Assembly (NCBI GenBank): GCA_947589305.1
Contig: CANQAP010000002.1
Span: 62,001 to 126,000 of the forward strand
Length of the DNA: 64,000 bases
Direction of reading: 5' to 3'
Source: an uncultured Lachnospiraceae bacterium
Lineage (GTDB): Bacteria; Bacillota; Clostridia; Lachnospirales; Lachnospiraceae
In this document: piece by piece, positions 55,388-57,234 of the stretch
How the letters are laid out: each line of letters begins with the position of its first letter
Position numbering within the stretch: the first letter of the stretch is position 1
Made by a program: the position numbers and the translations under genes
The notes under the pieces: model-generated
The model's input: only the letters and a program-made list of their open reading frames with translations
Database searches by the model: none
What the model was told of the DNA's origin: nothing

Positions 55388-57106
55388 TTATTTGGCAGCC
55401 GCTTTCTTCGCTTCGTTTTCTGTTTGGATGACAGACTGAAAACCCTGCATATCATCAGCGATTTCTTTGCTTAAGATCAGCAGGCAGATCAGATTCGGGA
55501 CTGCCATGAGGGCGTTGGCAATGTCGGAAAGATTCCATACCAGATTCAAAGTCATGGTAGCGCCGAAATAAGCGATCACGGAAAATACAATACGATATAT
55601 GATATTGTATTTATGGGTATGCAACAAATATTCAAAGGCTTTTTCCCCATGGTATTCCCAACCTAAAATAGTTGAAAAGGCAAATAATGCGATTCCGATC
55701 GTCACGAGCCAACTGCCTGCGGTTCCGAGTACGCTCGAAAACGCCTGAATGGTCAAAGCAGAACCAATGTATAATTCTTCATATACATAAGTGCCGTCCT
55801 CGAAAAACTTGAAGATATTGCCGGAAGAATCTTTCCAAGCGCCTAACGGACAGGAATCCTGAAGTACACCGGCAGTCGCAGGATGCTGTTCCATATCGGT
55901 TTTTGTCAAATGAGCGTCTGTACAAGGAGTCAAATGGTAGACGGTTTCACCATCAACGGAACGCAGAATCACTTCATCGTCAGTGAGATCTACCTGATAA
56001 TCGGTGGTAATGGTTTCATTCTTTGGATTGACGGAAGTTAACGTTAAAATCTGGGATTCATATTGATATGTATTATCCTGTGTGACATGCGTATTACCCA
56101 GTACGCCGGAGCTGGCAATACATAAACCGGTGATGGTACATACGACAATGGTATCCCAAAATGTTCCGGTCATGTTGATGTATCCCTGCCGCACCGGATT
56201 GTCGGTGCTGGCAGCCGCAGCGGTAATGGCAGCGGAACCCATGCCCGCTTCATTGGAAAATACCCCGCGCGCAACACCGTAACGCATGGCGTTGGAAAAA
56301 GATGCAACGATCGTTCCCAGTACACCGCCGGTTACTGCCTGAAATCGAAAAGCGGACCGGAAGATCAGTACCAAGCCTTCCGGAAGATTTTCCAGATTCA
56401 AAATAATGACAATGATTCCTGCGATCACATAAAAGACAGCCATTAACGGAACGACTACGGAAGAAACCTTGGAAATCGACTGAATCCCTCCAACGATGAT
56501 CAAAAGAGCCAGCACTGTGATAATGATCCCAATGATCCAAGTCGGCACGCCAAAGGTTGCGTTGATGGAGGAGGAAATGGAATTTGCCTGTGTCATATTA
56601 CCGATTCCGAACGATGCTACGACGGCAAAAAATGCGAACAGCCATCCGAGGACAGTACCGAATTTTTTATGCCGTAACGCTTTTTTCATTGTATACATCG
56701 GCCCGCCGGACATTTCACCCTTTTCATTCATTTCACGATATTTGATCGCAAGCATACATTCGCTGAATTTGGACGTTAATCCGAAGCATGCGGAAACCCA
56801 CATCCATACCAAAGCACCCGGACCGCCGGAAACCATAGCGGTAGCCACGCCGACAATATTTCCGGTTCCGATCGTAGCAGCCAAAGCAGTGGTTAAGGCG
56901 GAGAAAGGAGACACATCGCCGGTTCCCTTTTTGGCTGTACGGGCTTCCTTGCTCAATGTACTTCGTAATGCGTAGCCTAGATTTCGCCATGAAAGAAATC
57001 TGGTACGGATCGTAAGAAAAATACCGGTACCGACCAATAAAACCAGCATGACAGGACCCCATACAAAGCTGTCTATATTGCTGACGATTTTTGAAAACTG
57101 TTCCAT
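55388..57106 (-). CDS. Sodium:alanine symporter (AGCS family) with atypical central insertion
   Basis: SALTTALAATIGTGNIVGVATAMVSGGPGALVWMWVSACFG; ARGVFSNEAGMGSAAITAAAA; TM pattern. Confidence 0.92.
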   Translation of the reverse strand: MEQFSKIVSNIDSFVWGPVMLVLLVGTGIFLTIRTRFLSWRNLGYALRSTLSKEARTAKKGTGDVSPFSALTTALAATIGTGNIVGVATAMVSGGPGALVWMWVSACFGLTSKFSECMLAIKYREMNEKGEMSGGPMYTMKKALRHKKFGTVLGWLFAFFAVVASFGIGNMTQANSISSSINATFGVPTWIIGIIITVLALLIIVGGIQSISKVSSVVVPLMAVFYVIAGIIVIILNLENLPEGLVLIFRSAFRFQAVTGGVLGTIVASFSNAMRYGVARGVFSNEAGMGSAAITAAAASTDNPVRQGYINMTGTFWDTIVVCTITGLCIASSGVLGNTHVTQDNTYQYESQILTLTSVNPKNETITTDYQVDLTDDEVILRSVDGETVYHLTPCTDAHLTKTDMEQHPATAGVLQDSCPLGAWKDSSGNIFKFFEDGTYVYEELYIGSALTIQAFSSVLGTAGSWLVTIGIALFAFSTILGWEYHGEKAFEYLLHTHKYNIIYRIVFSVIAYFGATMTLNLVWNLSDIANALMAVPNLICLLILSKEIADDMQGFQSVIQTENEAKKAAAK

Positions 57107-57137: not shown

Positions 57138-57182
57138 TCCGGAAAAAAGGGACTACGAATAAATGTGATTCGAAGTCCCTTT
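57138..57182 (-). terminator. Terminator-like hairpin in the AGCS leader
   Basis: - strand: AAAGGGACTTCGAATCACATTTATTCGTAGTCCCTTTTTT. Confidence 0.7.
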
Positions 57183-57206
57183 GCTTCATCTAATAAAATA
57201 TATTCC

Positions 57207-57234
57207 ATTGTATCATAAAAGTATTCGATGTCAA
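57207..57234 (-). promoter_or_regulatory. Putative AGCS promoter TTGACA-16-TACAAT
   Basis: - strand TTGACATCGAATACTTTTATGATACAAT upstream of the leader hairpin. Confidence 0.7.

Follow-up and report, generated by a model that had tools for sequence, protein, structure and literature searches.

The symporter gene and its interrupted core

The minus strand of the window (the whole 64,000-nucleotide stretch of DNA analysed here) carries an open reading frame whose stop-free translation runs to 572 amino acids and whose ATG is preceded by a good ribosome binding site, GGGAGG (Table 1). The product scores 450 bits against the Pfam profile PF01235 (cut-off 24) and 483 bits against TIGR00835 agcS (cut-off 272.65), and its best and sole sequence relative in the PDB is AgcS of Methanococcus maripaludis (6cse/6csf). 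From these matches, the gene is a normal LeuT-fold, predicted Na+/alanine (glycine) symporter of the AGCS family. It is the only AGCS gene in the source genome, a 2.2-Mb assembly of 27 contigs that is 87% complete. An AlphaFold2 model of the full protein, built from a 66-sequence alignment, has a mean pLDDT of 81. The Foldseek matches of this model are dominated by the transporter, with 6cse_M found at an E-value of 1.3e-26 and a TM-score of 0.91 normalised by target length. The modelled core is thus a LeuT fold like that of the solved AgcS, with which it shares its whole extent and the conserved motifs.

Table 1. Features of the AGCS symporter gene and of its predicted inserted domain (residues are those of the 572-aa product)
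Feature	Coordinates	Strand	Basis
AGCS family sodium:alanine symporter, 572 aa, with predicted extracellular domain insertion	55388..57106	-	PF01235, TIGR00835, AgcS 6cse
Insert in the TM8-TM9 (EL4) loop, residues 337-447: beta domain of DUF5640/lipocalin-like type, apparently circularly permuted	55766..56098	-	Alignment boundaries, AlphaFold2, permutation tests
First part of insert, residues 337-383, corresponding to the canonical C-terminal part (DUF5640 profile ~31-76)	55958..56098	-	Matches of other family members, rotation scan, hhalign
Junction segment, residues 384-418, of varying length and sequence, linking the canonical C-terminus to the canonical N-terminus; one predicted strand, 389-394	55853..55957	-	Rotation-scan plateau, length variation, DSSP
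Second part of insert, residues 419-447, CPLGAWKDSSGNIFKFFEDGTYVYEELYI, corresponding to the canonical GxW start (profile ~3-26)	55766..55852	-	Alignment, profile matches, rotation scan, hhalign
Transporter continuation: EL4 helix, TM9-TM11, C-terminus	55388..55765	-	6cse alignment, AlphaFold2, topology

Unlike AgcS, in which the TM8-TM9 loop is short, the window protein carries about 100 aa of additional domain at this position. The 6cse alignment covers residues 4-336 and 447-568 and leaves the approximately 110 residues between them unmatched. In relatives without the insertion, the stretch corresponding to G337-G448 is only about 8-10 residues long (for example, SVNEAGELIT in L070), and the net insertion is therefore close to 100 aa. 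A preliminary description of this DNA had reported an insertion of about 110 aa in an AGCS symporter at 55769-56098. Alignment with AGCS homologues and with the AgcS structure confirms that the insertion is real, and the earlier coordinates are correct to within one codon. An ordinary long AGCS loop is ruled out, since AGCS loops at this position are about 10 aa.

Fold and strand order of the insert

The insert is predicted to be a confident beta domain seated on the AgcS core. Within the full AlphaFold2 model its pLDDT is mostly 85-92, and modelled alone from 64 sequences it reaches 83, in keeping with the earlier proposal of a folded, non-membrane domain. Both models contain 8-9 strands; in the full model these are residues 339-350, 353-359, 365-374, 379-383, 389-394, 414-416, 419-425, 431-434, and 439-445. 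When the insert alone is compared with the PDB by Foldseek, the best match is a Bacteroides lipocalin-like protein (4qrl), and the best ranks of the top 30, all with E-values above 0.1, are mostly calycins, among them L-PGDS, bile-acid-binding proteins, a circularly permuted streptavidin, and a pneumococcal lipocalin lipoprotein. Weak E-values are expected here, because a sequential aligner scores a permuted domain poorly, and the ranking is suggestive support for a calycin fold. A profile search of the PDB by sequence with the insert gave chance matches only (best E 0.22).

Profile comparisons within the family point to the same fold and to an altered strand order. In single-insert Pfam scans, DUF5640 is matched by 30 of the 64 inserts (E<=0.1) and DUF6287 by 22. 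In native order, the DUF5640 match falls into two pieces: the start of the insert aligns with profile positions ~31-76 and its end with ~3-26. If the end is moved to the front, the match becomes a single piece covering 2-76. Of four relatives on which the swap was tried, three gained in DUF5640 score (28.5 to 32.9, 27.6 to 31.1, and 16.9 to 20.9 bits) and one, L047, lost the match. One native-order insert reaches the DUF5640 cut-off of 28.5 bits. Of 36 swapped inserts, 20 matched at E<=0.01, the best at 2.6e-10. The window insert itself reaches no Pfam cut-off and has no DUF5640 match in either native or swapped order; its sole Pfam match is NlpE (E 0.02 native, 0.005 permuted). An NlpE (PF04170) identity was rejected, given that this match appears only at E 0.008-0.02 in the window sequence and in one of the 64 members.

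The strand order was also tested with a profile gathered independently of the inserts. This canonical HMM was built from 29 canonical domains taken from DUF5640 matches in other genomes, and 64 inserts, cut at every third alignment column and rotated, were scored against it. The mean best-domain score rises from 10.1 bits in native order to 17.3 bits on a flat plateau and falls on either side. The plateau corresponds to cuts before insert residues ~47-84, that is, the variable linker, and any cut within the linker works. Rotation improves 58 of the 64 sequences, which are not independent of each other (Wilcoxon p 2e-11), while shuffled and reversed inserts average only 0.5 and 1.3 bits. The window insert follows the same course, going from 6.8 to 17.4 bits against the local canonical HMM. 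In a profile-to-profile comparison of the insert with the canonical domain, hhalign gives an E-value of 7e-6 in native order and of 2e-10, over 71 columns, after rotation. In the reciprocal test the native insert HMM was applied to rotated canonical domains, and the score was highest for cuts in the strand 2-3 loop.

Together, the profile analyses indicate that both halves of the insert are homologous to the canonical DUF5640/lipocalin-like domain and that the insert is a circularly permuted version of it, with front and back halves swapped. Like DUF5640 (PF18692) and Lipocalin_4 (PF13648), which both halves match, it has the GxW...DG and GxY...LTL motifs; it differs from them in the exchanged halves and in its location within a membrane transporter rather than a secreted lipoprotein. 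The earlier suggestion of a lipocalin-like domain thus holds as to fold family, by profile similarity to DUF5640/Lipocalin_4 and by the calycin matches in Foldseek (E >0.1), but it missed both the permutation and the extracellular, EL4 side on which the domain is predicted to lie. The swapped order also means that profile searches are left with two weak half-matches, and annotation misses such domains.

Most conserved positions of the insert alignment are glycines or aromatics, or belong to the fold's GxW/DG motifs; the GxW tryptophan is present in 78%. The window insert has 5 K+R and 19 D+E residues, and the inserts of the alignment are likewise acidic: on average, acidic residues outnumber basic ones by about 11.

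Distribution, history, and probable origin of the insert

A scan of genome contigs yielded 80 loci, of which 68 have an insert at the identical site and 12 have the loop of about 10 residues. With the window, the inserted set comprises 69 sequences. Insert length across the 68 loci is 67-131 aa (median 105), and the frame is open in all of them. Judged by record title, nearly all of the inserted forms come from Lachnospiraceae or from loosely named Clostridia/Eubacteriales, including some records that are not marked as MAGs, such as L038 (Roseburia sp. 1XD42-69) and L041 (Eubacterium sp. MSJ-13). The taxonomic range, to which the preliminary description had pointed as a check, is accordingly almost only Lachnospiraceae. 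Among 150 sampled genomes of the family, the insert profile finds strong AGCS matches in 8, the window's own included, and additionally a weaker match in the shortened L066 insert; across 399 genomes of the phylum there was no strong AGCS match elsewhere. Similarly, in a list of AGCS genes from a phylum-wide sample of 300 genomes, only that of the window has a match span of 1521 nt, the others spanning about 1100-1270 nt. By this measure, two genomes of the window's genus (G001 and G006) have an inserted copy beside ordinary paralogues, and five others have ordinary copies only. Both forms also occur together in one MAG (L048, inserted; L070, ordinary).

Two loci stand apart. A record titled Bacteroidales bacterium (L004) carries an inserted AGCS gene of the Lachnospiraceae type that nests among Lachnospiraceae in the tree, and it is probably a mislabelled or contaminated MAG. 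At L066:6009-6209, the insert is cut down to 67 aa, with much of its first half missing, and may represent the domain on its way to being lost.

The insert and the transporter around it have evolved at very different rates. Among inserted forms, the median pairwise identity is 78.9% for the core and 26.7% for the insert. In 15 close pairs, not all of them independent, median dN/dS is 0.061 for the core and 0.308 for the insert, with dN about five-fold higher in the insert. Insert dN/dS is below 1 in all close pairs, at about 0.1-0.4. The insert is maintained under purifying selection, with weaker constraint than the core. Within the core, residues that track the presence of the insert amount only to conservative swaps.

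A tree of the core, calculated with the insert columns excluded, requires 8 changes of insert state, and a reduced tree requires 6. A single origin without later change is rejected: constraining the inserted forms to one clade costs 91 units of lnL (AU p 0.0003), a test that leaves the direction, loss or regain, undecided. Since the inserts share both site and permutation, a single gain and several later losses or exchanges explain them more economically than multiple gains, and the repeated changes of state are probably losses. This suggests that any functional effect of the domain is dispensable.

As to where a permuted domain might have come from, four Lachnospiraceae loci (L093, L097, L100, and L160) encode proteins with a lipoprotein- or signal-peptide-like start followed by two tandem DUF5640-like repeats. 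They were found as weaker, non-AGCS matches of the native insert profile and are therefore a biased sample. The canonical HMM matches each repeat, while the native insert HMM matches best across the repeat junction (31.4, 28.3, 20.9, and 16.6 bits in the four proteins). These proteins differ from the insert in being soluble and in having two whole repeats, whereas the insert is a single repeat in shifted phase. Their arrangement is the one from which an out-of-phase excision would have to start, and it suggests how the permutation could have originated. A model of permutation by duplication, in which tandem repeats serve as the source, has been proposed (PMC3320104). The same source describes a counterpart in the plant-specific insert (swaposin) of plant aspartic proteases, where a circularly permuted domain, saposin, also sits in a loop of an unrelated protein, although the domain and the host protein are different ones and the setting is eukaryotic (PMC3320104).

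By such a route, a tandem two-repeat, lipocalin-like lipoprotein would likely have been cut out of phase, and the AGCS gene of this Lachnospiraceae lineage would have acquired the resulting small calycin-like beta domain between TM8 and the EL4 helix. The variable linker would connect the natural termini of the domain, and the new ends, made by opening the loop that joins canonical strands 2 and 3, would be spliced onto TM8 and EL4. The two strands that begin and end the insert lie side by side in the canonical barrel, so the attachment to the transporter is probably a short two-strand stalk. Overall, we consider it probable that the locus encodes an AGCS symporter with an EL4-borne, circularly permuted calycin-like domain, likely from a tandem-repeat source.

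This domain architecture is new, though built from known parts, and is undescribed within the literature searched. That search found no paper linking AGCS with a lipocalin or with a domain insertion, in agreement with the earlier statement that no described AGCS member with such a domain was known, and it found no paper mentioning DUF5640. To our knowledge, prokaryotic LeuT-fold symporters seldom carry domains inserted in their loops, and we are aware of no description of a transporter with an inserted lipocalin-like domain that is circularly permuted.

Predicted position on the EL4 lid and candidate roles

In the predicted topology, the K+R-rich loops 35-66 and 122-148 lie on one side of the membrane and the insert on the opposite side. 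From homology with the LeuT fold and from this charge distribution, we infer that the insert is extracellular, between TM8 and the EL4 helix. In LeuT and SERT, EL4 is a lid that moves and gates access during transport, and the binding of antibodies to it hinders the first transition (PMC8253976). Because EL4 moves in this way, a domain tethered to it could plausibly tune the transport cycle: it would alter EL4 movement, and with it transport rate or access, and leave the substrate site unchanged. Such a lid-side accessory is our leading candidate for the role of the domain, held tentatively, and a further reading, in which the permuted domain on the EL4 lid acts as an allosteric or access-controlling cap, is somewhat doubtful.

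Several other roles have been weighed. The domain might instead cover or display the outer face of the transporter with no action on transport, for example by binding the cell wall or surface proteins, or by masking EL4 from phages, antibodies, or inhibitors. Rapid sequence change with retention of the fold, an acidic surface, and repeated gain or loss of the insert over an unchanged core would all suit such a surface function. However, dN/dS below 1 in all close pairs means that there is no sign of diversifying selection at the level of the whole domain, and no conserved partner gene adjoins the symporter; we regard this reading as possible but rather unlikely. Slightly less credence goes to a near-neutral passenger: a domain lodged in a tolerant hairpin tip would persist because its harm is slight, and its losses would reflect dispensability. 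The repeated changes of state, the weaker constraint relative to the core, and the one shortened insert are what such a passenger would leave behind. Against this, the dN/dS values and the open frames indicate that the domain is maintained, although constraint on folding alone could give the same result.

Capture or sensing of a ligand, as the preliminary description had proposed, fares worse. A lipocalin-like cup could bind alanine, glycine, a peptide, or another small molecule and hand it over to the transporter or regulate it; some members of the calycin fold do bind small ligands, and the domain would be suitably placed at the entrance to the transport path. Yet the alignment contains no conserved polar pocket signature, the conserved residues being mainly structural, and the insert is poorly conserved (about 27% identity against about 79% for the transporter) between orthologues whose transport cores are nearly identical. 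In addition, relatives that are about 80% identical lack the insert altogether, the insert has been gained or lost repeatedly, and small DUF5640-type domains may lack an open cup. A dedicated alanine or glycine capture site therefore fits the evidence poorly; the domain might still bind varying ligands, but the proposal as a whole is improbable. Least likely by far is an artefact of assembly or annotation, or an AGCS loop of ordinary length. The genome is an incomplete draft assembly, and nothing more speaks for an artefact; against it are the 68 independent loci, including records not marked as MAGs, and the length of ordinary AGCS loops. We rank tuning of the lid slightly above surface interaction and the passenger, with ligand capture last among the roles.

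Extracellular additions of other kinds are familiar in other families. NKCC/KCC cotransporters have large extracellular loop domains. An extracellular loop is also described for QacA (PMC10425836). These proteins resemble the inserted symporter in having extra extracellular structure able to influence transport, but they belong to other families, and their additions are neither calycin-like nor permuted. The present system is unusually testable: the core is about 79% identical among inserted forms, insert-free relatives are about 80% identical, both forms coexist in some genomes, and EL4 is a known moving lid. If the domain does act as a cap, the nested insert-free relatives would provide natural plus/minus pairs for the effect of a lid-borne domain on the LeuT-fold cycle.

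The surroundings of the gene vary among relatives. No conserved operon or partner gene is shared with the window, and about 20 inserted loci (for example, L061, L045, and L051) share neighbours, recognised by eye and absent at the window gene, that resemble adenosylhomocysteinase, a rhodanese-like protein, and a small membrane protein. A search for riboswitch control found no Rfam element close to the window gene or to its counterpart in 12 relatives; Rfam matches elsewhere, away from the gene, are to tRNA, the S10 leader, and TPP. The leader of the AGCS gene (57143-57234, minus strand) contains a strong sigma-A-like promoter, TTGACA-16-TACAAT, and downstream of it, a short way before the ribosome binding site, a terminator-like hairpin, AAAGGGACTTCG...CGTAGTCCCTTTTTT. 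Leader hairpins of this kind are present in 14 of the 68 inserted relatives and in 8 of the 12 without the insert, many with similar GGA(GA)CAA stems, which suggests an undescribed attenuator.
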